Positions 9,612-35,444 of a DNA stretch of 64,000 nucleotides are shown here, piece after piece. Every line of letters starts with the position of its first letter. Within the stretch, counting starts at the first letter, position 1. The notes beneath the pieces are model-generated. The model was not told the DNA's origin and did not search any database. It was given only the letters and a program-made list of their open reading frames with translations. This DNA is from a virus. The stretch covers positions 1-64,000 of the IMG/VR virus record IMGVR_UViG_3300008261_000027. One strand, written 5' to 3'. The translations under genes and the position numbers were made by a program.

Positions 9612-11717
9612 TTAGAAATCTAATTTTACGGAGAACACTTGAGCCGCAGTTCTGGTTATTGGTTTAGCCGTTTTAGCAATTACTAATGGTTCTTTGTTAT
9701 CATTTAATAATGCAACCTCAGTAATTTTTTTAGGTAAACCAGAAACATAAGTTGGATTTTGTGTATGTAAGAATTGTGTTGATGGTAGATTAACCATGAA
9801 GTTTAATACCTCAACGTCTGTTGCTCTGGTTAACTTAACCGCTCCGGGGAATGGTTGTGTGTCTCCAAATTGTGGTAATGTTGTCTGAGTATCTGATGGT
9901 TGATTTCCTAAGAATTCTTCAATATCATAATAATCAGCAGAATCTACCATGTCTCCAGTTACAACAAATTGATATCCACACATTTTATTACCTGGTATTA
10001 AATTACCAACTGTATGTCCAGATATTTGTGATGTTAAATCAACCATTCTCCAATCATCTGTTGTTGGTTGATTTCCTGTGGGTATTACTTGAACTAAGGC
10101 AAAAAACTTATTTGCTGTAAATCCTGTGAAATATGATGATGAGCTTAAATAAGCGAAATCATTAGTATCAAATTTAAAACCAATATTTGAATCTGTTGAT
10201 CCAGTTATTTTCCCATAATAATTACAGTGCATACCGTTTCTACCAGTATCTCCGGTGTATTGGAACATATAGGTCACCCACGCCGTTTCTCCGGTTTGAA
10301 CAACCGGTGTTAAATCATAAAATGTTGGTAGATCAACTGGAACTGTACTAAACCTAGGTGCTGGAAGTGTCCATTTTCTATTTGATTTATAATCAAGTAT
10401 TGCAACCAATTCTTGGTCATCAAAAACAATTATTTTTTTATCAACGAAAACTTTACCAACTCTATTACCTTGTTCATCCAACAAAAATCTAAACTTAACA
10501 TTATTAGTGTTTGGTTTATTGTTTTTTGATGATGAAACATAATAATTTGTTGTATCCATTACAAATTTTGCACCGATAGTACTTCCAGTATTTCTGTGAT
10601 AAAAAACAAACGGAATATAGACCTCAAAATAATCTGTATCTGAAACATCTACACCATCAATTTCGTACTCATCTGTTGTACTTGATCCGATATAATCATC
10701 ATACTTAAAAAATCTTTCAGGATCATTAACAATATCACCTAATTCTGAATAATGAATAACTGCAATACATCTTTGATCTTCTGGTTTGATATTAATCTTT
10801 TCACCAAATGAATTTGTGTAAGATGTTGGATTTGAAATTGTCCCTCCAGTTAAATTTGTAAATGTTTGGCCAGATGTTGATGTGTACCCAAGATACTCTT
10901 TTAGTGATGCAAATTGGGTTCCGGTATATCCACTAATATTTTCATCAAGTAAATCTTGAAAAGCATTTGAATCTAATCCCGCTGGTTTTTGAGTCCAGAT
11001 TAATTCTAATGACCATGGATCGTGTTGGTCTAAATTATCAACCGGTACAGGTGAACAAACTGTTGATTCTGTTGGTGTTTCTGGATATTCTAAACTACAC
11101 TTATTACATATAACTTGTGCATATCCAGTTTCTCCAGTTAAATTAGGCATAGGTCTATCTAGTTCAATTTCATTTGCAGAAATATCTACTATCTTATAAA
11201 CTAAACTTTGTGTTTCACCAGTTAATGTATAATCCTGTCCGCATAATCTTGTTTTAAATAATATCGTAATATATTCACAACCAGTGTATCCGGTTGCACC
11301 AGTAACTGATAATAAATTTGTACCATCGATTTGAGTAATATCAATTTCTTTAACTAAGCACTCAACAGTTGTACCGCTACATTCTTCAGCATCATATGGT
11401 TTATAATTTGATACAAACCCTGCTGGGCCCATCGGGTTTTTAATTGTTTCTGTTAAAGATTGTTGAATAGCATTACCAAAATTAATTGTTTCACCAGAGC
11501 TAACTAGATATGGATATTTGATATGTTGATCGCCGTCCATAGGTGCTAACACTCTTTGGTGCGTTGTACCAGTATATCCACTAAACGTATAATCAAATTC
11601 AGAATCGCCAACCTGAAAATATTTTATAACAAAATTACCTTCAGCAATAGACTTTCTACCCTTTCTGGTTATTCTGGCTGACAAATATTCTGAATTATTA
11701 CTATCTAAAAAGCTCAT
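9612..11717 (-). CDS. Virion structural protein with GYTG motifs, tail fibre or baseplate-associated
   Basis: 701 residues, no enzyme motif. The N-terminus (MSFLDSNNSEYLSARITRKG) followed by GNFVIKYFQVGDSEFDY looks like a conserved virion attachment head found at the start of T4-like structural proteins. The body is Thr/Gly/Asn-rich, with many GYTG/YTGT segments (SGYTGTTHQ, GATGYTGCEY, SGYTGTQF), shared with the 301-residue protein at 25978-26883. It ends a chain of adhesin-type genes. Most likely part of the host-recognition apparatus, distal to the baseplate. The exact homologue is not recognised. Confidence 0.65.
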   Translation of the reverse strand: MSFLDSNNSEYLSARITRKGRKSIAEGNFVIKYFQVGDSEFDYTFSGYTGTTHQRVLAPMDGDQHIKYPYLVSSGETINFGNAIQQSLTETIKNPMGPAGFVSNYKPYDAEECSGTTVECLVKEIDITQIDGTNLLSVTGATGYTGCEYITILFKTRLCGQDYTLTGETQSLVYKIVDISANEIELDRPMPNLTGETGYAQVICNKCSLEYPETPTESTVCSPVPVDNLDQHDPWSLELIWTQKPAGLDSNAFQDLLDENISGYTGTQFASLKEYLGYTSTSGQTFTNLTGGTISNPTSYTNSFGEKINIKPEDQRCIAVIHYSELGDIVNDPERFFKYDDYIGSSTTDEYEIDGVDVSDTDYFEVYIPFVFYHRNTGSTIGAKFVMDTTNYYVSSSKNNKPNTNNVKFRFLLDEQGNRVGKVFVDKKIIVFDDQELVAILDYKSNRKWTLPAPRFSTVPVDLPTFYDLTPVVQTGETAWVTYMFQYTGDTGRNGMHCNYYGKITGSTDSNIGFKFDTNDFAYLSSSSYFTGFTANKFFALVQVIPTGNQPTTDDWRMVDLTSQISGHTVGNLIPGNKMCGYQFVVTGDMVDSADYYDIEEFLGNQPSDTQTTLPQFGDTQPFPGAVKLTRATDVEVLNFMVNLPSTQFLHTQNPTYVSGLPKKITEVALLNDNKEPLVIAKTAKPITRTAAQVFSVKLDF

Positions 11718-11737: not shown

Positions 11738-12820
11738 TTAAAATGGATTTTCGCCGCCGCTACACGACACATTTCCAACATTAGTTACCATACCCATTGA
11801 ATCGATTTCGACAAAATAATATGTTCCAAGAGTATATGTGTTTTCATATTGGGTTGTGCTAATTGCATAAACATAACCTGATCCCGCACCAACAATCGGA
11901 TCACCGTTGGAATCATATATAGTATAATTAAGCATTCCTGAAATTGTAGATGACGTTGATTTAACTACCGCTGACATAACATATCCAGGGCTCGAACAAT
12001 ATGTTGTTTGAGTTTGCTCTGGTGTTGCAGTTGGTGCTGGGCTACAGCCTATTGTTACACTCCAAGCATCTGATGGATTTGGTGGTGTTCCATCAGGATT
12101 TGCTGGGCCAACATCAACACGTAATTCATATGTTGTTCCAGATGAATATGTAAAGTTAAATGATCCATTACCATCAGTATCAACCAAACTACCTGCGCTA
12201 CCCCAAGGGCCGGCATATGTATTATCAGATCCAACCCAACCACTGTTCGCAATTAATGAGCTATCACCATATATGTTAAATCTATTTGGTCTATCATTTG
12301 CCACAAATGTGATTGTAACTATATCGCCATTTGTTGCATCACTCAAATCGAGATATTTTGTTTGTGTTACAAATGTACTTGGTGCGTATGTATCAGACAC
12401 AGTATCACCACAACCATACATTACAACTGTTGCTGTAGGTGTTGGTGTTGGTGTACTAGTAGGTGTGCTTGTTGGTGTACTTGTTGGTGTTGCGGTTGGA
12501 CCTACGGGCGTTGCTGTAGGCGTTGGTGTTGGTGTATTAGTAGGTGTTGCGGTTGGAGTTGCTGTAGCTCCAGCAACAAAATTAATATTAATACATTGTG
12601 TTGTCCCCGAACATTGCCCATTATCAACCTTAACATATAAAGAGGTTACCAAATCGTTAGTTATTGATATTGTTTTTGGAAACCCAGAAACAGCTTGTCC
12701 TGTTGCCAAACTTGTACAACCACTTCCACAAGAAGCACCTGTACAACCAGATATTGAAACAGTACTACCTGTTATATCTTCACCAACTGTACCTAAATTT
12801 ACTAGCGCGTTAAATGCCAT
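11738..12820 (-). CDS. Tail-associated adhesin with Thr-Pro stalk
   Basis: 360 residues. The N-terminal domain of about 85 residues is Cys/Gly/Ser-rich (CTGASCGSGCTSLATGQ) and resembles the first domains of the neighbouring adhesins (an LATGxxxSGFxxxI pattern also in the 194-residue gene). Next comes a Thr-Pro stalk of about 40 residues ([19 protein letters not shown]). A beta-rich middle domain with FNIYGDSSLIANSGW follows, then a second short TP segment and a C-terminal domain ending VEIDSMGMVTNVGNVSC. The design is anchor, stalk, receptor-binding head. ATG is preceded by TATTTATA at 4 nt. Confidence 0.65.
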   Translation of the reverse strand: MAFNALVNLGTVGEDITGSTVSISGCTGASCGSGCTSLATGQAVSGFPKTISITNDLVTSLYVKVDNGQCSGTTQCININFVAGATATPTATPTNTPTPTPTATPVGPTATPTSTPTSTPTSTPTPTPTATVVMYGCGDTVSDTYAPSTFVTQTKYLDLSDATNGDIVTITFVANDRPNRFNIYGDSSLIANSGWVGSDNTYAGPWGSAGSLVDTDGNGSFNFTYSSGTTYELRVDVGPANPDGTPPNPSDAWSVTIGCSPAPTATPEQTQTTYCSSPGYVMSAVVKSTSSTISGMLNYTIYDSNGDPIVGAGSGYVYAISTTQYENTYTLGTYYFVEIDSMGMVTNVGNVSCSGGENPF

Positions 12821-12847: not shown

Positions 12848-13261
12848 TTATATTGTTGCTGTTGCTGTTCCACTGTTAAAATCACAATATATTATTTCAG
12901 TTGGTGTTGGTGTTGGGGTTATTGATGCTGTTGCAGATCCGCCACTAAAATCACAAATCGGCATACACGGATCGTAATAACTTTCACTATGAATTTTAAC
13001 ATTTTCAATAATATACCCATCCGTAACAGTATCTTGTATTTTTATCCAAACTGTGTCAAAAAATATATCATCAAATGTGGCCCCAGTTAAAATAACTGGG
13101 TTTGTATAATAATTCCTAGATGCACTAGAAGGATATGTACCACCATATTGTGTGTAACCAGTAGCAATAACTGTTTCATTACCTGGTGTAGGTGCAATCC
13201 TATATGAAAGTTCAAAAGGATTTGGACAATTTATATCATATACTCTAATGTGTAAACCCAT
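12848..13261 (-). CDS. Short adhesin-like protein with CDF-GTATA motif
   Basis: 137 residues. The first 105 residues form a beta-type domain (MGLHIRVYDINCPNPFELSY). The last 30 hold two copies of a short motif, CDFSGGSATASI and CDFNSGTATATI, joined by TPTPTPTE. The same motif ends the 272-residue structural protein at 26885 and, in extended form, builds the large repeat array at 18732-19708. It is the first gene after the terminator at 13293-13322 and has TATTTATA 5 nt before its ATG. Probably a small virion-surface protein; the function is not recognised. Confidence 0.6.
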   Translation of the reverse strand: MGLHIRVYDINCPNPFELSYRIAPTPGNETVIATGYTQYGGTYPSSASRNYYTNPVILTGATFDDIFFDTVWIKIQDTVTDGYIIENVKIHSESYYDPCMPICDFSGGSATASITPTPTPTEIIYCDFNSGTATATI

Positions 13262-13346: not shown

Positions 13347-13931
13347 TTATACGCTTGCGCCCGAATCTAAAACAAACGCGACATAATCGTTTCCACTGGT
13401 AATTCCAATCGTATGATCATATGTTGCGTTACCTCCAGTAGCTGATCCTGGACATGTTGATGACCCAACCCCGACCATCGCATAAGTTTGGTCTGTTCCA
13501 ATTGTAACAATATCACCTAATGTTAATCCAGTAATTGTACCAATTAAAGAACAACTATTTGTCAATGGATCAAGCGTTGTTAAATATTCTGTTGTTCCAC
13601 TGTTTACTTGATAATAAACTGAAGCATTTGCTGGTGTACCATCAAGATCTTTACCATATACTTGTAGATCTACCAGAGATCCACCTCCACCTCCACCAAT
13701 TCCAGTTAACCATTCTTGACTTGTGCTACATGTTCCAGTGCTTTGTATTGTACCACCACTTAATGTTTCATATGTGGTGTTTATTGTATAACCACTTATT
13801 AATTGATTTTTCGTTACCCCTGTTGCTAATTGATAGGTGGTTCCACCAGTAGTTGTTCCTGAAATATTAAATGGACCGGCCACATATGTTGCACCAGTAT
13901 AAGGCGATTGTAATGTGAATGTAATTGTCAT
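13347..13931 (-). CDS. Small beta-rich adhesin-like protein
   Basis: 194 residues. The N-terminal half (MTITFTLQSPYTGATYVAGP, then FNISGTTTGGTTYQLATGV) shares the pattern GPFNI...ATGxTxxQL with the first domains of the 1352- and 629-residue adhesins, so it is probably a paralogous anchor domain. A Gly-rich hinge (GIGGGGGGS) near residue 77-85 leads to a C-terminal beta domain (GKDLDGTPANASVYYQVNSG). There is no Thr-Pro stalk. It ends its transcription unit. Probably a short member of the same receptor-recognition set. Confidence 0.6.
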   Translation of the reverse strand: MTITFTLQSPYTGATYVAGPFNISGTTTGGTTYQLATGVTKNQLISGYTINTTYETLSGGTIQSTGTCSTSQEWLTGIGGGGGGSLVDLQVYGKDLDGTPANASVYYQVNSGTTEYLTTLDPLTNSCSLIGTITGLTLGDIVTIGTDQTYAMVGVGSSTCPGSATGGNATYDHTIGITSGNDYVAFVLDSGASV

Positions 13932-13979: not shown

Positions 13980-16900
13980 TTAAGCATTACATAATTGTGA
14001 ACATGAACTAAATGATCCATAAATCTCTGTCAATTCATAAACGTAGCTAGGACCAGAAGCATTACTTACTAGTTTATATGCATAACCATCAGGGCCTGCG
14101 GATGATGGATAGAACTCATTCAATGCTACTATTGCCCCCGCTGCGATTCTAGCAACACCTGTTCCGGATAAACTACAACCGCTACAGTTATAAACCTCAA
14201 CATTATAGTAATCATATGCTGGAGCACATGAATCTAGTGTCACCATACTACTTGTAACCACACAACCATTTGCATCAGTAACTTTAACACGATATGCAAA
14301 AGAAGCGGTCAATCCGGTTACATTTCTAGTTGCATCACCACTATTGACGCCAGTAAATGTTGCAATTAAAGATGTGTTAATAGGATCATTATATGGTGAT
14401 GTATTATCCTCATAAACTTGATATGTTTTAGGGAAAATTCCGCCGCTAGAAGATACTTGAATAACACCACTACTATCACAATCTGGTTGTGTAACAACGG
14501 ATATCGATGCTGTTCCTTGTGTTGGTTGTGACAATTGGGCTGGGGTCAAATCATTTGTTGCGTTAGCACCATCTTTTACCCTAAATGTGTATGTTGTATT
14601 AGCAACTAAATTACTGAATGTTTTAGGTAAATTATAATATGGGAAATAACCATCTTCGCTAAATGCAACTTGATAACCACTACCACTTCCACCACTAGGA
14701 TTTGAGATTGTGTAGCTACCATCAGATCCACCATTACAACTAATGTTTGAATACGCTATTTGCGCTGTTGGTGCTGTAGGAATTGTAATTGTTACATTTG
14801 AAACAATTCTTTCACAATCTGAATTATCTCTAACATAAACACTATATGTCCCCGATCCTAATCCTGTGTATTGTTTACTACTTGAACTAAACGTTTCATA
14901 TGTACCAGAATTTAGCTTCACATCATAATCTGCAAATCCAGATCCAGTTCCACCCTGTGGACTACTAACTGTAATTGTTCCTGTTCCGGTATATGTGGAT
15001 GGGTTTGTTGATGAAACTGATGCTGTTACTATTGAATTTTGTGTTACAGCTACGCTGTATGTTTGTGTACATGTTGCACCATCTTTAATACCTATTGTAT
15101 AGGTACCGGAACTTAATCCAGTGAATGTTTTTGGTAAATTAAAATATGCCCCGCCACTTATATTTGCTTGATACCCACTTCCGCTTCCGCCAGTACCGTT
15201 TGTTACTGCAATTTGGCCAGTAGAATCGTTAAAACAGGTTACATTTGTTACTGTTGTTGTTGCATTAGGTGCAGATTTTGATAATACTTGTGTTGTTGCC
15301 GTAACGCAATCATTTTGATCTTTTACATATAAAATATATGTTCCGTTACTTAAACTACTAAATGTTCCGCTTGATTGGAAGTTTATACCATTTATTGAAT
15401 ATGTTTTTGTTCCAGTACCGCCAGAACCAGAAACGGTGATACTTCCGTTACTACCATCCCAACAAGTTGGTGCTGTTGCATCTGTCACACTAATTGAAAG
15501 TGCTGTTGGTTGTGTAACAGTAACAGAATATGATTTAACACAATTGCTATTATCTTTAACATAAATGGTATAAGTTCCGGCGGACAAAGAAGTGAAAGTA
15601 TGTGATGAAACGAATCCAGTATAATTTGTCCCGTCTTTTGAAACTCGATAAGGTGAATTTCCTCCAGTAAAACTTGTTACAGCTATCGATCCAGTACTAT
15701 CACCATTACATGCAATATTTGTTGGTGTAAATGTGGCGTTTGGAGCTGTTCTATTTAGTGTAACTGAAGTTGTTACAACACAATTGTTTGCATCTTTTGC
15801 ATAAACTGTGTAAGTACCATTACTTAAACTACTAAACGTACCAGAAGATTGGTAATTCGTGCCATTTATTGAATATGTTTTTGTTCCTGTCCCGCTAGAC
15901 GCCGATACGCTTATAGAACCATCACTACCATCCCAACAAGTTGGGTTTGTCCCTGATGCTGAAATACTAATCTGTGTTGGTTCTGTTATTGTTACCGAAT
16001 ATGTGTTTTCGCAGTTTGCACTATCTTTAACATAAATGGTATATGTTCCAGCAGCTAATGAAGAATATGTTCTAGATGTTGTTATTACTTGATAAGTTCC
16101 ACCCGCATTTAATTTTGTTGAATATGGGCCACCTTGTCCGCCACTTAATGACGATACCGTTATTTCACCACCTGATGCACCATAACAAGTGTTGTTTACT
16201 TGAGATACCGTTGCTGTGACCTGAGTCCTACTCAATGTAACTGAAGTTGATCCCGTACAATTGTTACTATCTTTAGCATAAATTGTATATGTTCCATTTG
16301 CTAAATTACTAAAAGTTGTGCCGGTCTGATAGTTTGTACCATCTTTAGAATATGTGTACCCACTTCCAGATCCACCAGAAGCAGAAGAAACGGTAATTGA
16401 TCCATCTGTACTGGCATTACAAGTTGGATTAGTGCCGGATGCACTTACTGAAACAACCGATGGTTGTGTAACTGTAACTGAAGTACTACCAACTTCATTA
16501 TAAGAATCTTTTGCATAAATTGTATAAGAACCCGCAGTTAATCCACTAAAAATAGTACTTGATTGATAATTGCTACCGTCTTTAGAATATGTGTAACTTG
16601 CGGTACCTCCACTAGCATTTGATACTGTTATAACACCGTTAGATCCACCATTACATGTTACATTTGTTGTTGCTGACGCTGTTACAGAAATTGTTACATT
16701 TGTAATTGTAATTGTTATGGTTTTATCAAATGTTAACCCACCGGCATCTGTTGCTCTAACCCTAATTGAATAACTAGATTTAGTTTCATAATTAAAAACA
16801 ACAGAACTTTTTAATGTTGTTCCATCAATATAAAAACTTGAGTTATCGGGATATGTTACGGTATCATGTAATGTGAATGTAAAAGTATCACTAGCATCAG

Positions 16901-18038
16901 GATCTGTTGCCGATAGTGTTCCAATAGTTGTTCCTGTTGGTACGTTTTCAGATATAGATGAAGAACTTAAAGAAATATTTGTTGGGGCTTCATTAACATT
17001 TGTTACATTTATTGTAAATGTTCCATCGTATGTTAATCCGCCAGCATCTGTTGTTCTCACTCTTATTGAGTAAGATGTTTTTGACTCGTAATTAAAAACT
17101 ACCGCATTTTTTAACACACCAGCACTAGATAGTGTAAAACTTGCATTATCTGTGTCGCCAGTTCCACTTACTAAAGCATATGTAAAAGTATCCCCAGCAT
17201 CAACGTCTAATGCACTAAATGTACCAATTGTTGTTCCGGTTGCTGTATTCTCTTGTTGTGAACTATTATTAATAGTTAAACCATAAGGTGCTTCATTAAC
17301 ATTAAGAATGTTAATTGTAAATGCCTTATCAAAATATTGACCAACGCTATCTGTAACTCTTATTGTAACACTATGTGATGTTGCGGATTCATAATTAAAA
17401 CTTTGTGATGATCTTAATGACGTACCAGAAATATTAAAGTTTGTTCCACCACTTATAACTGTATATGTGTGTGTGTCACTATTATCTAATGTTGTGACAG
17501 ATAGTGTACCAATAGTAGTGTTAATAGCACTATTTTCATTAATTGTGTTATTACTTAATGAAATATCTGTTGGCGGGAAATTAACATTAACGTTAACATC
17601 AAATTCACAATTAAGTGTTGGCGTTGGTGTTGGTGTTGGAGACGGACTCGGGGTTGGTGTTGCGGTAATTACGTTTGTATTAACATCAAAATCGCAATTC
17701 GGTGTTGGTGTAGGTGTTGGTGTCGGAGTTGAGGTTGGGGTTGGACTCGGAGTTGGCGTTGGACTTGGAGTCGGTGTTGGGGTTGGTGTTGGTAATATTA
17801 ATTCATCTCCAGCCAAACAGTTTTGATCTGTATTGTATAATACTATTTTTATTGCTTCATCTGGCACAGAAACTAGCACACCATCAATATCTGTTAAATC
17901 AGAATATGTGATCCCTGTTGCTGGTTGAGATGTTGATACAACGGTAGCAATATTTGAAGGATTAACAACATCATAGTAGATGTTGTATGGTCCTGGTGCT
18001 GTTCCTGATACTATATTAACCGTGTATTGTTTCGCCAT
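13980..18038 (-). CDS. Giant adhesin: Thr-Pro stalk, cadherin-like and SprB-type repeats
   Basis: 1352 residues. Order: an N-terminal domain of about 80 residues like that of the 629-residue neighbour ([31 protein letters not shown]). Then Thr-Pro segments with two or three CxFDVN motifs to about residue 145. Next are three cadherin-like repeats ([37 protein letters not shown]) to about 450. About ten repeats of 75-85 residues follow to about 1270, on the SprB pattern ([33 protein letters not shown]). A C-terminal Cys-containing domain closes it. SprB repeats are known from surface adhesins of gliding Flavobacterium. This phage copy is probably a long receptor-binding fibre. Confidence 0.8.
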
Positions 18039-18061: not shown

Positions 18062-19951
18062 TTAACTTCCACTACATAGGTTTAAGCTATAACCTAACGT
18101 ATTTAATCCAGTTATTATTTGATCCGCATAATATTGTGGTGTTGATCCTTGTGTTACATTTTCAATATATGTAATTTCATTTTTGTCTGATAAACCATTT
18201 GTTCCAGAATATGATCCTGTACCATTCTTAACAGCAGCTAAGAATTGTCTAAATCCATCGTATGAATTTGGACCAGTGTTTACTCTAAATACGATACCTC
18301 TATAATAACTATTATTAGGTGCACTGCCAAGATTTGTTCTTAAAGAAGCTAAATCCAAATCATATTGTGCGGTTCTTACTCCGGTATTAAATGAGCTACC
18401 ATCAGCACTATACGGTGATGCTTCATCTTGGAATACTAGATTAATAACTTTTGTTGTACTTGGTGTAGATCCACTAGTATTCAACATAAATAAAGTTCTT
18501 TCAAATCCACCTGATTTAGCACTGAAATTACTTACAGTAACATTTTGATCATATAGATCATAGTCATTGTTATAGAACTGAACTAAACAATCTCTTAATA
18601 TTGTGTTTCTCATAGTTTGTAGTGGTGTTAATGTCGCATTCATTGATCCACTATCATCAAACCATATGTTTATTTCTGTATTCTCATCCACCACTAATGG
18701 TTGACCAATTGCCCCCTCAAATACACAATCTGTTGTTGGTGTTGGAGTAGGGGTAGGTGTTTCAGTAGGTGTTGGACTTGGTGTCGGACTTGGGGTCGGA
18801 CTTGGAGTCGGTGTTGGTGTAGCCGTTGGGGTTGGAGTGGCTGTGATAATATTTGCATCAACACCAAATTCACAATTTTCTGTTGGTGTTGGAGTAGGGG
18901 TAGGTGTTTCAGTAGGTGTTGGTGTCGGTGTCGGAGTTGCTGTAATAACAATTGTATTTACGTCAAACTCACAATTTTCAGTTGGAGTAGGAGTAGGTGT
19001 TGGGGTTTCAGTAGGTGTTGGGGTTGCTGTTACCACGGTTGTATTCACATCAAACTCACAATTTTCAGTTGGAGTTGGCGTTGGTGTTGGTGTCGATGTA
19101 GGTGTTGGCGTGGCTGTTATTACATTTAAGTTAACATCAAACTCACAGTTTTCAGTTGGAGTAGGTGTTGGCGTTGGGGTAGAGGTCGGTGTCGGTGTTG
19201 GAGTTGGGGTAGCAGTTACAACATTTAAGTTTACATCAAACTCACAATTTTCAGTTGGGGTAGGGGTTGGTGTTGGAGTCGATGTAGGGGTTGGGGTTGC
19301 TGTTACCACGTTTAAGTTTACATCGAATTCACAATTTTCAGTTGGTGTGGGTGTTGGAGTTGGTGTGGCCGTCACAACATTTAAATTGATATCAAACTCA
19401 CAATTTTCAGTTGGAGTTGGAGTTGGTGTAGGAGTCGCAGTGACAACATTTAAATCTACATCGAACTCACAATTAGGTGTTGGTGTTGGTGTGGGGGTAG
19501 GTGTTGCGGTAATCACATTTAAATCCACATCAAACTCACAGTTTTCAGTTGGGGTAGGAGTTGGTGTTGGTGTGGCTGTAACAACATTTAAATCCACATC
19601 AAATGCACAATCAGGTGTTGGAGTTGGGGTTGGAGTCGGAGTTGCTGTAATTACATTTGTATTAACATCAAACGCACAATCAGGCGTTGGAGTTGGGGTT
19701 GGAGTTGGGAATACAAATGTTATATCTGACTTACATTCTTCTAATGTATTATATAAAATAATACTTGTTGATTCAGTTGGTATTGAAACTAAAACACCGT
19801 TTCCAGTTGTTAATTGACTATATGTTAAGCCCGTCGCGTTACTTCCATTACTAACCAAGGTTGCATATGTTGAACCCGTTGCGTTGTAGTAAACGTTGTA
19901 TGGTCCAACCGATGTTCCTGATGTAATTTTTATATTAAAGTATCTTGACAT
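18062..19951 (-). CDS. Adhesin with 11-unit Cys-Phe-Asp/Thr-Pro array and vWA-like head
   Basis: 629 residues. Residues 1-80 are the same anchor-type domain as in the 1352-residue protein ([35 protein letters not shown]). Residues 82-406 are 11 tandem units of the form [12 protein letters not shown] followed by a Thr-Pro stretch of variable length. From about 407 there is a von Willebrand A-like domain: [12 protein letters not shown] near 426-437 has the DxSxS metal site (MIDAS), and the alternating strands and helices ([31 protein letters not shown]) fit. vWA domains bind ligands through a metal ion. The stalk would display this head; the target is unknown. Confidence 0.75.
18732..19708 (-). 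repeat. In-frame tandem repeat, 11 units of CxFDV + Thr-Pro stalk
   Basis: About 1 kb of imperfect tandem repeat within the vWA-like adhesin gene. The basic unit is about 23 codons (69 nt), expanded in the downstream units by extra Thr-Pro pairs. Codon choice varies between units (GTT GGN, GTA, GTC on the plus strand), so the copies are kept similar at protein level more than at DNA level. The plus strand carries a long Val-Gly shadow reading frame that is an artefact of the repeat. Confidence 0.85.
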
Positions 19952-19971: not shown

Positions 19972-22900
19972 TTAACACGCATATGAGTCTGTCACATTAC
20001 CATTATTATCTATTTTTAATTCCGTTCCGGCATTTGATGCATGATTGCTACCATAATATTTATTTTGTCCATAATATCGCACTGACATAGTGGCTTCAGA
20101 ATAGAATCTAGTTACTAATGTCCAATCTGAGTTGTTGCCATATGCTGTATATGGATATGGTCCAGACAATTCTGTACAACCTTCTGTCGATGGGTTGGTT
20201 TGTCCAGTGCTAATATTATAAATTGTAACAGGACACGAAATCGCATTAAATGTAAATGATGTTAATGGCGTGAATTCAGTTACTATACCATTAACAACCT
20301 TAATTATATTAGACACATTTCGGTCTATATTTCCTGGAAAATCTGTTTGTACCGCCGTAAAATTACATGAGCTACAGAAATTGTATGTAATATTTCCACT
20401 ATATATTTCTGTTCCAACACCTAATGTTTGAGATGATGGATATGCATATTGTGACCCACCATAACTTGAATTAGGACTTATCAGTACATGATTTATATAA
20501 TCTGCAACTTCTTGTGGTGTGTTATTCAACCAATAGATATTATTTTCACATATCCTTCCATTAGTGTAGAACCAAGTTGTATTAAATGATTGAGTTGGTG
20601 TAGGCGTTGGTGTACTACTAATAATAGATGTCGCAGTTGGAGTTGGTGTTGGTCCAGTCGTAGCAGTTGGTGTTGGTGTTGGTGTAGCAGTAATAAACAC
20701 TTCTGTAAATGTTGCATCAAATGAACAATCAACAGTTGGTGTTGGCGTAGGTGTAGCAGTAGGTGTTGAACTAGGCGTTGGGCTAGGTGTTGCAGTTGGA
20801 GTCGCTGTTGGAGTTGGCGTAGGTGTACTAGTTGGTGTTGCGGTTGGAGTTGGAGTTGATGTTGGTACCGGTGTAGGTGTTGGCGTAACATATCCATACA
20901 CTATATCGCATGTTGCAATAGGTGGATCAGTACATACATCAAAACCATCAATATCTCTAGTTAAACCACTGATTGGTATTGGTGAACAATATGGTTCATT
21001 AACATAATATTGTTGAAGATAGGCATCCATTGGATTTGTCTCAACATATTCGTGTTGAACTAATAATGTGTGGTTATTATTACCATTGAATACTACTAAG
21101 TTTGTTAAATTAGTATCACCAGTTACATTTATATTGAAATAAAGATTTGGTTCACAATAATTTAAATCTACCGAAACAACTTCGATTAATTCCCCAGTTT
21201 CAGTTATGATAAAATCACCAGTATCATAATAATCTGATGGATAATCACAACATGGTTCTTGTTGTTCTTCTGGTTTTAATTGTAAAAACTCTGGTGATCT
21301 ACTAACAAAAAAGTAAGATTTTTTTCTTGTTATTGGTTGCACACCACTTTCGTCAACAACTTTATTTGTATATACTCTTAATTTTGTTGTTGGTAAAACT
21401 TCAAATACTTCATATACACCATTTGATGTTATACCGGTAATTAAACTAGTTTTCACCGATCCAAGACAATCAATATATGATATAGTACTTGCTGAATAAT
21501 CATATGAGAAAGAATAATCACCACTTAATTCTGAATTTTCAAACATACTGCTCGTGAATCCAGAACATGGTAATAAATTCGCGGTTAATATTGTTTGGCC
21601 GCTAACTAATGCTGAAACATTTGTTTCGATTAAATTTCCCGATGTAATGTAATTGTTTATATCTTGAGATGTTGTATTAGAATTAATTGTAACACCACTT
21701 ACACGATATACCTTTGAATCAGATTTTAATCCAACATCATAACTGTTTCTAAATTGTACATTTGGAGATATTGTGTGTGCAGTTTCTGAAACATAATTAA
21801 TTCCTAAACCTTGTATTTTAAATTTAAGATCACAGTTCGCTGCATCGGTAATTAAAACATCAATCTCATCGTCTTCTTTTACATTTGTAACAATAAATTG
21901 ACAGGTATCTCCAGTCGATTTAAGGAAAAATGTTGTAGGGTCATTAGTAACACCATGATAAACGTTAACCCCTTCATCACAATTTTTATGCATGTAGATT
22001 CCCCAATTAGGAACCCCAGTATAATTGTTTTGAACAGTTACGCCAGTTAAATTAATAACAACATCACTAACTAATTTACAATCAGTTTGCCCGGTGTAAA
22101 CATCACACACAGCGAATATTTCCGCATCCATGTAGCATTTTGGGTCTTGTGTTACACCATAATTTGCTGAAAAATAAAAATCTAAAGATCTATCACCTCT
22201 ACAATCGCCATTATTATTTAAAATAAATTTAATTTTTTTAACTTGGTTGGTATCTTCAAATATTTCATAACTTAATAGCTGGCTATCTCTAGATAACGTG
22301 GCGCCTGTGGGCACATAACTAGGAACGTTTGTTGCGCTATACTGTGTATATGTGTCATTTATATTAGCAACGAGGTTAGCAATTGCTTGATCCCAATTTG
22401 CTTTTATTGTTGTTAAGTTTAAACTTATCCAATTTTTATATTCACAAATTAAAGGAATTGCAGTTGAAGAGTTTGCTAAAATATCACAACTATTTGACGC
22501 GGTAAATCCACTAGGAAAAATTGTTGATCCAGTAATTGAAACTTGTGTTGATCCCGTATATTCAACACCATCTATCTCAATAGATAGTGTGAATGTAACC
22601 CCACTAAAATATGTCAATCCTCTTAACTTATCTGGTTCACCAATAATTGTTTCAAGATCTTCTTCAATAAATGATTCAAAATCCGGATATAAATTTTCAA
22701 CAATTTCTAATGGTTTACATGGTTTTTTGTACGCATATTTTGGTCTACCAAAAACGCTATTTGTAACTAAGTTACCACCCATCCACAATGTTGTTGATGG
22801 AACGATTTGATCTAAAACGCTAGTCCAATATGGACTCATTTTATTAACAAAATCTGATACTGTTACAATATCATATGGAGTGTATCCAGACAATTGTAAT

Positions 22901-25044
22901 TGATTTACATAATCTTGGTACACATCTTCTAACTGAATATAATTTTTCTTATACTTGATTGTATTTGAATTTTTTATCTGTCCGTTTAATACGTTTCCTA
23001 AAAATTCACTGAAGCTTATAGATGTTTGTGGCTCAAGACTATTTGTGCCAAATGTTACTTCTAATTGTCTAGATTTTGTCCAGATGTCATAGTTTACTGC
23101 ATTAGCAGCATCAATAAAGACGTTAATATTTTTTCTATTAAGAGTTAAATTAGAAGAATTTTCATCATCTAAAATTTGCCCTTTAACATTATCTATTTGG
23201 CTTGTTAATGTAAAACCGTAATCAAGACCCGGTAATGTTCTATATATATTAAAATAATCTTCACCATATGTATATGGCTTTGCTGTTGTTAATATGGTTT
23301 TTGTTCTACCAGTTAATACTGAGTTTTCCGTATCTAAAATATCTGGTCCTCTGTGATTAAGAGTTGTTGTATACCAACCAGAACCCATTTGGAAAAAGAC
23401 ATTGTCTTGATTTGTTGTTGGGGCTTTTGGTTGATACGTTACTGGATCGACTGGGTAATCACTTGTTTGTGTTACCGACGTTGTTCCAGTTGCAGCACTT
23501 AAACTATAGGTATAAGTTGTTTGATTAAATGATATTCTGTTGTTTGTTCCAACATTATTTATAACATTAAAAATATCTTCTTCAGTTGTTGCGGCAGGTA
23601 TTGCACTATTAACTCTATACGTATATTCGTCTATTCGTATAAGTGGGTCTGGAGCACCAATAAACTTTAAGAAAAATTGTAAACTACTTCTTGTACCCTT
23701 AGATTTATATATGTAAGCTAAGTTTACTAATAATCTTCTATAAAACTCTAATTCACCCTCAACAAGATTTTTACCAATCGATTGTCCATTGTATATTACA
23801 TTGGAGTTTTTATATATCTGTTCTTCTAATGATTTTTCATCAAATAAATCAATTGTGCTTAAACCTAAAGTATTTGCTAAATTTTTTAAGAATACGTCTG
23901 GAATATTGTTTATTGAATCATATGAGACATTTCTCATATAAGCAATATTATCAATGTATTTTTTTACATTATCGAAACTTTGACCATATAGTTGAAAGAT
24001 TTTATCCGCTTTTTGGTCTTTGCTGTCAAACTCAAATAATTGTGGCGCAGTTAGAAATCTTGTAACCAAATTTGATTTATAGTCATCAATTTCATCTGCT
24101 AAATTATTTAACTTATTAAGATATTCATCAAAAGCTAAACCATCTATTGCAATATTCCAATTATCTTTTGCTAATGGCCAGTTAACAACCACAGAAACAA
24201 TTTCTGTTTTACTTTCATCTAAACTAGTTCTAGGAACTTTAAATGATGATTCATAAATCGGATATGTTTCTCTATTTAGAATAGTTGATTCTAGATCGTC
24301 CAATCCTAAAAAGAATTCTTCAACAACAGAGTCATTTGGTTTAATCAAATAACTTGAGGTGTATGTTGATCCAGTGAATGGTTTACCAGTTACTTCTAAT
24401 TGAATGTATTTGTTTACATCTGGTTCAGTATAACTTACAATTGGATATAGTACACCATTAATTTCTAATGAATATTTTTTATATGAAGAGTAAAAATTTC
24501 TTAATTTATTTTCGCTTTCAACTAAATCCGCTTGTGGTGGTTTTTTTAAAATTATTTCAAATGGATTGAAAAATTTTGTTGAGTGAACATTAAATGTGGT
24601 TTTATTACTACTAGATGTATATACTATATTTTCGCAAGTAAGATTATTAACAGAAAATATACTGCTTGAATCCGCATAAAGTCCCGCTGGAAAGTTTTTA
24701 ACAATCCTAGCAATTGAAACTCTTAATCTTTCTCTTAATGAACCGAATAAAGATTTTGCAGCATCTTTCTTAGAGTTATTAAATCTTATCGGTCTTTTTT
24801 TACCATCAGATTGTACAACCGTTGTGGGTACATCTTCTTCAACCTTTAATGTATCTAAGGTTAGAAATTCTGAAAATGGTGCTGTTCTAAAAGTTTTTTC
24901 GTCTTTTTCTGGTGTAGTTCTATCTAGTGTAAAGTTGGTATTAGTTAATTGACTAGTACCGTCGGTAATTTGTCTACCGACAAGACTATCACTAAATGTT
25001 TCAAAACCACCACCCGATTGACTCGGAACTTTTCTGTTTGCCAT
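19972..25044 (-). CDS. Large baseplate-linked protein with C-terminal Thr-Pro stalk and head
   Basis: 1690 residues. The first about 800 residues look like a baseplate or tail structural protein. [20 protein letters not shown] and the segment [20 protein letters not shown] (near 440-460), which resembles the GT-motif region of tail protein I/gp7-type baseplate proteins, come before many beta domains. Residues about 1380-1500 are a Thr-Pro stalk containing a [10 protein letters not shown] motif as in the adhesin repeats. The last about 190 residues form a separate Cys-containing head ending [14 protein letters not shown]. So this gene fuses a baseplate-type body to an adhesin-type tip and may be the fibre attachment point. 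ATG overlaps the stop of the 302-residue gene. Confidence 0.65.
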
Positions 25045-33124: not shown

Positions 33125-34957
33125 TTAATATGTAGGGATATCTAGAGTTTTTACTCTAACCTGAATGTCTTTATTAGGGAATCTTATTTGAAAAATCTGA
33201 TTAGATTTCATATAAATCGCCATATCTTTTTGTAAGATTTCTTTGGTTGCGGGATCTTTATAAGCTTGGGCTACTTGGGATGACGAATATTCTCCACCAA
33301 CTTTATTGAAAACTCTAACCTCAATTACGTTGACAACACCAGAAACATTGTTAACCTCTTTCATCAATTCACCAATGAATAATGGGTCACCCATTTTTCT
33401 TTTGTCAATCGAAAAATATTCTCTTACTGCTGTTATAATTTCTCTAATAACTTCTGTTTGATTTTGATTTTTATCTAATAAAACATCCAATTTTAATTCA
33501 AAGTCAATAACTTCACCACTAACAATATCAATATAGTCATTTATCATTCTATACTCTGCCAAATAATTTAATATATTTTGCTTTAGCGTATTTGACACAA
33601 TATTTGTTAAATTCCCTTTTTCATCATAAGATAATAATTTGATTCTTACTTTATTATCTTCTTCCATTACATTCACTTTAGCTGGTGCACCATATGTTGA
33701 TGGCATTGTTTCAATTAATGATTTGTAATCATTTAATGTTACCGCTCTGTTTTGTGCTGCAAAATTGTAAGATATCATACCTCTCAATTCCTCAATAGTT
33801 GGTTGATCTGCACCACCAACAGCTGGAGTTACGTTTGTAACAGTTAATGATTGTATAACTTGTGAATTTACATTTGCTGCTGGTCCATTAACAATAAACT
33901 CCGAATTTTCTATGTTATTAAGAACACCAACACCTAAATTACTCTCTTTACCACCACCAATTCTATATTTTACAAATAAGGTAGTGTCTTGTTTAGGTAT
34001 AGCCCCCAAAGACATATTATTTAAGTAAGTCGCTAAATTAACCTTAAGGGTGTTTGTTATATAGTTATCCAAATTGTCTAGCGGATCAACATTTCCAGAT
34101 CCAAAAGTTATGAAAAAATAACCTTCTGGGGTATACTCTGTGATAAATTTATTATTTACACTAATGTATTGTCCAGCTTTAAAATTAGCTCTATCTGAAG
34201 TTGCTGTTGTATTTGGAACAAAAACTTTATCTTGTACTAGAGCTTTTACTTCATACCATTTATTCAATGGTGCGTTAAATTCAGAATTGGTTGGGTTTGT
34301 TGTAAAATTGGTTCCATCTTTATGTATGATAGATGATACCCCTAAAACATTTTGTTCTGGTAAAACTAATTTTAAGAAAGGTTTTTGATCTTTTTGAGTA
34401 ATAACTTTTCTAAATATTTTTGTAACCCCGTTTACAACTGGTTCTCTTTTTGTTATCGTGTAAGAAATAATTTTACTATTTCCATCCAAATTTGGGATTT
34501 TTAATCTGTTTGATTCACCTCTTTCATTAAACGGATTTGAGAAATCAATATCTGAAACAGTTTCAAATATTTGACCGCCTCCAGAAATTTGTGTTCCGGC
34601 TCTTAATATACCTAAGTATCTATTATCTTCGGAATCACCTTTAACCGGAACAATAATACTAAAATCACATAATGCAACAGATGGTCTTAGTCCTGGAATT
34701 CTAATTCCATATGTTTTAGCAATATGAAATAAAGATTGTCTTTGTTGAGCAAAATCCAACATTGTTTCTTGCCATACCCTATCAATATGAAAATGCAAGT
34801 TATCGGTAACAGCCGCATTTAAATCCAATAAAACGGAAAATATTGACGCGTCGTTTGTATTTTGTATTAAGTCTGGGTAATACTCTTTAGTTAATTTAAC
34901 TAAATCTTGTCTTAACCCAGCAAAATCACGATTAGTATATGCTATTTTTTTGCTCAT
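33125..34957 (-). CDS. 6: Baseplate wedge protein, gp6-like (Baseplate J family)
   Basis: 610 residues. The N-terminus (YTNRDFAGLRQDLVKLTKEY, DASIFSVLLDLNAAVTDNL, GIRIPGLRPSVA) has the typical gp6/baseplate-J start, and the middle LRGMISYNFAAQNRAVTLND is the conserved baseplate J segment (the T4 family shows R.av...Dy). The C-terminal region GDPLFIGELMKEVNNVSGV is also typical. gp6 dimers build the wedge ring around the hub and join wedges together. It follows gp25 at 1 nt spacing, as in T4-like modules. Length is close to T4 gp6 (660 residues). Confidence 0.88.
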   Translation of the reverse strand: MSKKIAYTNRDFAGLRQDLVKLTKEYYPDLIQNTNDASIFSVLLDLNAAVTDNLHFHIDRVWQETMLDFAQQRQSLFHIAKTYGIRIPGLRPSVALCDFSIIVPVKGDSEDNRYLGILRAGTQISGGGQIFETVSDIDFSNPFNERGESNRLKIPNLDGNSKIISYTITKREPVVNGVTKIFRKVITQKDQKPFLKLVLPEQNVLGVSSIIHKDGTNFTTNPTNSEFNAPLNKWYEVKALVQDKVFVPNTTATSDRANFKAGQYISVNNKFITEYTPEGYFFITFGSGNVDPLDNLDNYITNTLKVNLATYLNNMSLGAIPKQDTTLFVKYRIGGGKESNLGVGVLNNIENSEFIVNGPAANVNSQVIQSLTVTNVTPAVGGADQPTIEELRGMISYNFAAQNRAVTLNDYKSLIETMPSTYGAPAKVNVMEEDNKVRIKLLSYDEKGNLTNIVSNTLKQNILNYLAEYRMINDYIDIVSGEVIDFELKLDVLLDKNQNQTEVIREIITAVREYFSIDKRKMGDPLFIGELMKEVNNVSGVVNVIEVRVFNKVGGEYSSSQVAQAYKDPATKEILQKDMAIYMKSNQIFQIRFPNKDIQVRVKTLDIPTY

Positions 34958-34958
34958 A

Positions 34959-35414
34959 TTATATATTGATAATTATAAAATCTGAAGTGACAAAAGTTGA
35001 ATTATTTGTTGTATAATCAATTCTTATTTTTGCTGTATAAGGCTTTGTTGAAGAACTTCCTATTCTAAATAATCTACTATCTTGTTCTTCTTTAACAGAA
35101 GACGAAGAGTCTTCTGACTCTATTTCCGGATTCGTTATTTTTATTGAATTTATTTCTAAATTTGGTATATATGCTGCAACAGTTTCTCTAATATCTTCTT
35201 CAATATTTGAATAAGTTACAGAATCGTTTGGTTCAAAAATATACTCATACAATCTAGTGCCAAAATCGGGTAAGAAATATCTACTACCCTTTCTCGTTAA
35301 AAGTAAGTGAACAAGATTTGCACGAACTTCCTCGTCTACTGATTGAGTCATTCTTACATAGTCTCCTACGAAACTATCTCTAAATGGAAAATCTATACCG
35401 TATTTTGAACTCAT
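34959..35414 (-). CDS. 25: Baseplate wedge protein, gp25-like
   Basis: 151 residues from the ATG at 35414 (MSSKYGIDFPFRD). An in-frame ATG at 35432 would put the TATTTATA motif inside the gene and is less likely. LLLTRKGSRYFLPDFGTRLY and EYIFEPND at about 40-70 are the gp25/GPW family core. gp25 is the small wedge core protein to which the sheath attaches. An acidic/Ser-rich insertion (ESEDSSSSVKEEQDSRL) near residue 105-120 is longer than in T4 (132 residues). First gene of the wedge operon, behind a terminator and two TATTTATA copies. Confidence 0.88.
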   Translation of the reverse strand: MSSKYGIDFPFRDSFVGDYVRMTQSVDEEVRANLVHLLLTRKGSRYFLPDFGTRLYEYIFEPNDSVTYSNIEEDIRETVAAYIPNLEINSIKITNPEIESEDSSSSVKEEQDSRLFRIGSSSTKPYTAKIRIDYTTNNSTFVTSDFIIINI

Positions 35415-35417
35415 AAC

Positions 35418-35425
35418 TATAAATA
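35418..35425 (-). promoter_or_regulatory. TATTTATA motif adjacent to gp25 start
   Basis: Minus strand TATTTATAGTTATG, octamer 3 nt before the ATG at 35414. With this spacing it is unlikely to be the only promoter; a second copy is at 35445-35452. Confidence 0.35.
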
Positions 35426-35444
35426 TAAACAATAAGAAAATAGA

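Follow-up and report, generated by a model that had tools for sequence, protein, structure and literature searches.

A modular adhesin-like phage protein with a rod of SprB repeats and an exchanged C-terminal tip

A phage gene encodes a protein of 1352 amino acids that combines three cadherin domains, ten SprB repeats and a small C-terminal domain. The protein is probably a modular virion adhesin in which an Ig-like rod of host-lineage domains carries an interchangeable tip for receptor binding. It would belong to a T4-type contractile phage with a probable Bacteroidota host. Annotations of SprB repeats in uncultured phages and modular Ig-like adhesins with host-lineage domains in Bacteroidota phages (PMC13370021) are already known; the SprB-rod architecture with exchanged tips is a new variation on them. 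No paper on SprB repeats in phages was found in the literature searched. The gene is located in a window of 64,000 nucleotides, the whole stretch analysed, from an IMG/VR virus record of 118,317 bases in full.

Domain architecture, predicted fold and gene context

The open reading frame 13980-18038 on the minus strand has an ATG start. A Pfam search identified the SprB repeat (PF13573) with an E-value of 1.2e-34 and 118 bits in eight significant stretches, well above the gathering cut-off of 28 bits. The cadherin domain (PF00028) was found in three stretches (E 3.1e-22). When the 118,317-base record was searched in six frames, nine SprB matches were obtained, all in the frame of this gene, and four of the nine exceeded the family cut-off on their own. 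Outside this frame the record had no SprB match, and 14 control genomes had none either. Ten units were resolved by alignment: residues 447-524, 525-602, 603-686, 687-760, 761-842, 843-919, 920-998, 999-1079, 1080-1164 and 1165-1270. They comprise 74-85 residues each, except for a longer and divergent tenth unit (106 amino acids), and share pairwise identities of 23-70%. By profile, the units are SprB repeats and more than generic Ig repeats.

A preliminary description had proposed about ten repeat units of the SprB type with characteristic motifs at residues 450-1270, three cadherin-like domains and a Thr-Pro stalk in a fibre region. Number, motifs and repeat family agree with the alignment and the profile search, and the three cadherin stretches are present. 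The stalk occupies about residues 83-152, and the surrounding genes include large ones of the structural region. Positions of all features are given in Table 1.

Table 1. Features of the adhesin gene and its neighbourhood (window coordinates)
Feature	Position	Strand	Basis
Modular adhesin/fibre-like protein, 1352 aa	13980..18038	-	ORF, Pfam, six-frame search; homologues in identical gene order in relatives L010-L015 and L031
N-terminal domain, residues 1-82, putative virion anchor	17793..18038	-	Shared with neighbour 18062-19951 and with SprB-free proteins of related phages; AlphaFold
Thr-Pro stalk with C-x-F-D-V-N linker, residues ~83-152	17583..17792	-	Sequence; same stalk type in 11738-12820, 12848-13261, 18062-19951 and 19972-25044
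Three cadherin domains, residues ~153-446	16701..17582	-	PF00028, E 3.1e-22
Ten SprB units, residues 447-1270, beta-strand-rich Ig-like shaft	14229..16700	-	PF13573, E 1.2e-34; alignment; AlphaFold; GhpA fold matches
C-terminal tip domain, residues 1271-1352 and stop, probable receptor-binding end	13980..14228	-	Unrelated tips on homologous shafts; tip family also on L140
Neighbouring adhesin-like protein with the same N-terminal domain, long Thr-Pro stalk and C-terminal DxSGSM (VWA/MIDAS-like) motif	18062..19951	-	Sequence; no Pfam match
Small neighbour, N-terminal part conserved, C-terminal part differing between relatives	13347..13931	-	Comparison of relatives
Small structural-region protein with C-x-F stalk motif	12848..13261	-	Sequence
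Thr-Pro-stalk protein with its own C-terminal domain	11738..12820	-	Sequence
Conserved downstream structural-region gene, synteny anchor	9612..11717	-	102 relatives on viral contigs, 80 of them kept (41-100% identity)
Large upstream protein of the structural region, with a Thr-Pro stalk and a further domain at its end	19972..25044	-	Sequence
Baseplate wedge subunit (gp6-like)	33125..34957	-	phrog_219, E 4e-23; phrog_6, E 1.9e-21
Baseplate wedge subunit (gp25-like)	34959..35432	-	phrog_261, E 6.6e-17

In the AlphaFold model, residues 920-1352 form successive beta-strand-rich domains (mean pLDDT 83, pTM 0.47). The N-terminal domain was predicted as a confident beta-rich fold (pLDDT 88), for which a fold search of the PDB gave no significant match. 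The top PDB fold matches of the rod in Foldseek were fragments of GhpA from Aureispira (9flv, 9flx, 9flu and others; E 1.4e-9 to 6.7e-8, best match with probability 1.00), together with many other Ig and FnIII rods. GhpA is a Bacteroidota adhesin with an Ig rod. It differs in being a bacterial surface hook, and the whole-chain TM score of about 0.34 indicates that the domains match, but their arrangement does not. PDB sequence searches with the repeats and with a rod-tip profile yielded nothing credible, including no match to GhpA. The best viral fold match in BFVD was A0A6J5LD72 of an uncultured Caudovirales phage. This protein and A0A6J5LDA4, likewise from uncultured Caudovirales, are named 'SprB repeat' in the databases. 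Among cultured flavobacterial phages, virion structural proteins of Polaribacter phages P12002S/L, Cellulophaga phage phi19:1 (gp98, seen by MS), phage Nekkels and Tenacibaculum phage JQ are weakly similar to one or two SprB units, but fall under the Pfam SprB threshold. They were not accepted as a clear SprB precedent.

Large structural genes form a block around this gene, and T4-type baseplate wedge genes lie upstream of the block. Among named sequences, those closest to the gp6-like wedge protein share 25-29% identity with it and come from an uncultured phage, the Flavobacterium phage immuto and the Microcystis phage Mel-JY01. In immuto, genes annotated as tail fibre and tail spike likewise follow downstream of its wedge genes; over that stretch, sequence matches with the window are limited to the wedge genes. 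Four further proteins of the adhesin block have a Thr-Pro stalk with a C-x-F linker. The sole PHROG match of the 1352-amino-acid protein, phrog_26672, is in the category 'head and packaging', which counts against a placement in the tail fibre. It would fit a capsid decoration or an adhesin binding extracellular polysaccharide or particles in the environment, comparable to T4 Hoc and the BACON/PKD adhesins. The latter, modular proteins of Bacteroidota gut phages, resemble the present protein in their Ig-like modules of the host lineage; they bind mammalian epithelium when displayed and comprise other domain families (PMC13370021). The location downstream of the wedge genes and amid other stalked adhesins with exchangeable ends makes a capsid-bound or environment-binding protein rather unlikely.

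Rod conservation and tip exchange among related phages

The locus was compared using relatives of the anchor gene 9612-11717. Of 102 relatives, 80 loci were kept; 61 of these had at least 9 kb upstream, and clustering at 95% identity reduced them to 37. Of these 37 dereplicated relatives, 12 have a protein with two or more SprB units at the locus. The number per locus varied from 0 to 14 for SprB units and from 0 to 6 for cadherins, with six cadherin copies in the L014/L046 homologue. The N-terminal domain was also present on SprB-free proteins with quite different bodies (L052, L131, L136 and L140). Because SprB repeats are limited to a part of the relatives and the N-terminal domain is combined with differing bodies, the SprB rod is an optional, accessory cassette between a shared N-terminal domain and the tip.

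The metagenome origin of the record raises the question of an assembly chimera, in which a bacterial SprB gene was joined to phage DNA. Several further viral contigs encode homologues of full or nearly full length, at 55-100% identity and flanked by the same genes. On these grounds a chimera was rejected; its probability is practically negligible.

Closely related rods carry unrelated tips. Rod identity was measured on the first 330 residues of the SprB region. Loci L046 and L050 share 84% identity in the rod and 24% in the tip; for the window and L086, the values are 78% and 22%. Loci L051 and L105, with tips of the same family, share 88% and 59%. In the pairs L046-L050 and window-L086, nucleotide identity drops at the junction of rod and tip. 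No such drop occurs between the window and L045, which have the tip in common. The ratio dN/dS of the rod was 0.16-0.35 in four pairs, a rough range as dS is near 1 in two of them. The tip family of the window, a domain of 82 residues, is also present on L140 in a protein of 549 amino acids without SprB units. The tip of L046 recurs on its own neighbour gene, on the neighbour in L050 and on proteins of L066 and L088. The equivalents of the neighbour 13347-13931 likewise have a conserved N-terminus and a changed C-terminus. In these comparisons, the rod is the conserved part and the C-terminal tip the exchanged part, a pattern that makes the tip the probable receptor-binding end. Tip diversification by a diversity-generating retroelement was also considered, but a reverse transcriptase (RVT_1) was not matched in the 118 kb record, which may be a fragment.

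The long tail fibres of T4 have a conserved shaft and an exchangeable receptor-binding end and are encoded near baseplate genes. The present locus likewise combines a conserved shaft and an exchangeable, probably receptor-binding end with a position near baseplate genes. T4 fibres are trimeric fibrous proteins, whereas the phage rod consists of Ig-like domains.

As a virion adhesin, the protein would be attached to the tail or baseplate by its N-terminal domain. The flexible and possibly glycosylated Thr-Pro stalk, the three cadherins and the ten SprB repeats would together form a long, articulated Ig-like rod that keeps the small C-terminal tip at a distance from the particle. The tip, which is swapped from phage to phage and from one adjacent adhesin gene to another on a conserved rod, would bind the receptor. 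The SprB repeats may serve as a spacer, perhaps with a weak affinity for glycans, drawn from the repeat pool of Bacteroidota, and not as a device for joining the gliding track.

Relation to Bacteroidota adhesins and gliding

When 84,980 species genomes of bacteria and archaea were scanned, the repeat region had nine relatives, each with a Bacteroidota lineage in its title: Flavobacteriaceae, Croceivirga, Altibacter, Parafilimonas, Ulvibacter, Flavobacterium, Mucilaginibacter, Subsaxibacter and a Bacteroidetes MAG. The preliminary description had suggested a search for the same units in Flavobacterium genomes; a match was found in Flavobacterium flabelliforme, in an ORF of 7097 amino acids and hence in the size class of SprB itself. 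SprB repeats were detected in 36 of 148 sampled Bacteroidota genomes, other phyla being covered by the 14 control genomes only, and one Bacteroidetes genome had at least 150 matches over many ORFs. Because of this distribution, the SprB repeat is a general surface-protein module of Bacteroidota and not specific for gliding.

In a unit-by-unit comparison, all phage SprB units (194/194) scored best against units of other phage contigs. The units of the window share 33-53% identity with the best bacterial units and 56-92% with those of other phages. This points to a module acquired long ago or diversified within phages; a recent transfer from one bacterial genome is unsupported. The earlier proposal that a phage may have taken over an adhesin module of its host is supported as to the lineage, with nine of nine bacterial relatives in Bacteroidota, and not supported as a recent capture from a single host.

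Shine-Dalgarno-like motifs precede 2 of 87 starts in the record (2.9 expected by shuffling) and 1 of 30 in the Flavobacterium phage immuto (1.4 expected). In the Microcystis phage Mel-JY01, the motif was present at 10 of 35 starts (3.4 expected). Bacteroidota typically do not have Shine-Dalgarno leaders. Since the starts largely lack such motifs and the repeat relatives are all from this phylum, the host is probably a Bacteroidota bacterium. Judging from the IMG sample numbers of its relatives, the phage is presumably a freshwater phage.

SprB of F. johnsoniae, an elongated adhesive filament, shares with the phage protein long tandem arrays of the PF13573 family. It is far larger, with 6497 amino acids (PMC9870892) versus 1352. 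Cadherins, Thr-Pro stalk and tip domain are features of the phage protein. SprB is coupled to the gliding machine by its T9SS type B C-terminal domain, which is bound to SprF (PMC12635249, PMC12618676). In NCBIfam, no T9SS sorting domain, including type B (TIGR04131), was matched in the phage protein. By eye, its N-terminus shows no evident hydrophobic signal peptide, and AlphaFold predicted a folded beta domain from residue 2. That the protein binds or imitates the gliding machinery, as the preliminary description suggested, is not supported. A T9SS-anchored SprB copy acting as a mimic was rejected, as the sorting domain is absent. The lack of gliding specificity of the repeat and the exchange of the tip also speak against the proposed role.

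A SprB protein of a different type is encoded in the 642 kb record LR756502.1 of an uncultured phage (L043, 4933-9945). It combines what looks like a signal peptide with a T9SS type B sorting domain, the latter matched in the same NCBIfam run with an E-value of 2.4e-13, and by these features seems to be a complete host-type secreted adhesin. By analogy, the protein of the window could be made from the phage genome during infection and secreted to the host surface. This is very improbable for a protein without a T9SS domain match or an evident signal peptide, whose N-terminal domain is common to a neighbouring structural-region gene.

Gliding proteins matter in the adsorption of flavophages, and SprB and RemA were suggested as receptors (PMC13288928, PMC7345892). 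For this reason, a link to gliding through the receptor is possible. The SprB units, genuine repeats by profile, might also recognise SprB filaments or the gliding surface layer of the host by homotypic contact or a shared ligand, and the phage would be caught by or ride on the moving adhesins. Such recognition is unlikely in view of the variable unit number (0-14), the majority of dereplicated relatives without SprB at the locus, the exchange of the tip instead of the rod and the wide distribution of SprB repeats with many adhesin ORFs per genome. It is decidedly unlikely that virion SprB units contact the moving SprB layer of the host and that the gliding machine gathers or carries the phage before the tip commits to a receptor.

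With the repeats as part of a virion rod, this phage group would make its fibre shafts of a repeat known from gliding and other surface adhesins of the likely host phylum. The exchange of the end domain separately from the shaft may allow candidate receptor-binding tips of uncultured Bacteroidota phages to be recognised from sequence, and the SprB rod may serve as a marker for the host phylum. It also becomes testable whether the ligands of gliding adhesins and of phage fibres are the same or the likeness is one of architecture only.

Neighbouring proteins and further observations

The stalk of the neighbouring protein 18062-19951 contains about ten C-x-F-D-V repeats. Its C-terminal DDSGSMN motif resembles a VWA/MIDAS site; a Pfam search of this protein gave no match. 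A homologue in L031 (6580-8151) has kept the DDSGSMN motif and differs in stalk length.

An ORF of the same phage record outside the window (L018, 13663-14904) has a weak match to glycosyltransferases (best E 0.0011, below the cut-off) and could have a bearing on glycosylation of the Thr-Pro stalk. The Microcystis phage Mel-JY01 has a gene annotated as prolyl 4-hydroxylase about 16 kb from its gp6-like wedge gene (L017, 3084-3683). Two small lipoprotein-like ORFs are also encoded in the phage record outside the window (L020, 11798-12166 and 12163-12516), one of them with a weak DUF3244 match (E 4.7e-5, below the cut-off). Their lipobox is followed by CYKED and CYKEE, respectively, which we take to resemble the export signals of Bacteroidota surface lipoproteins.
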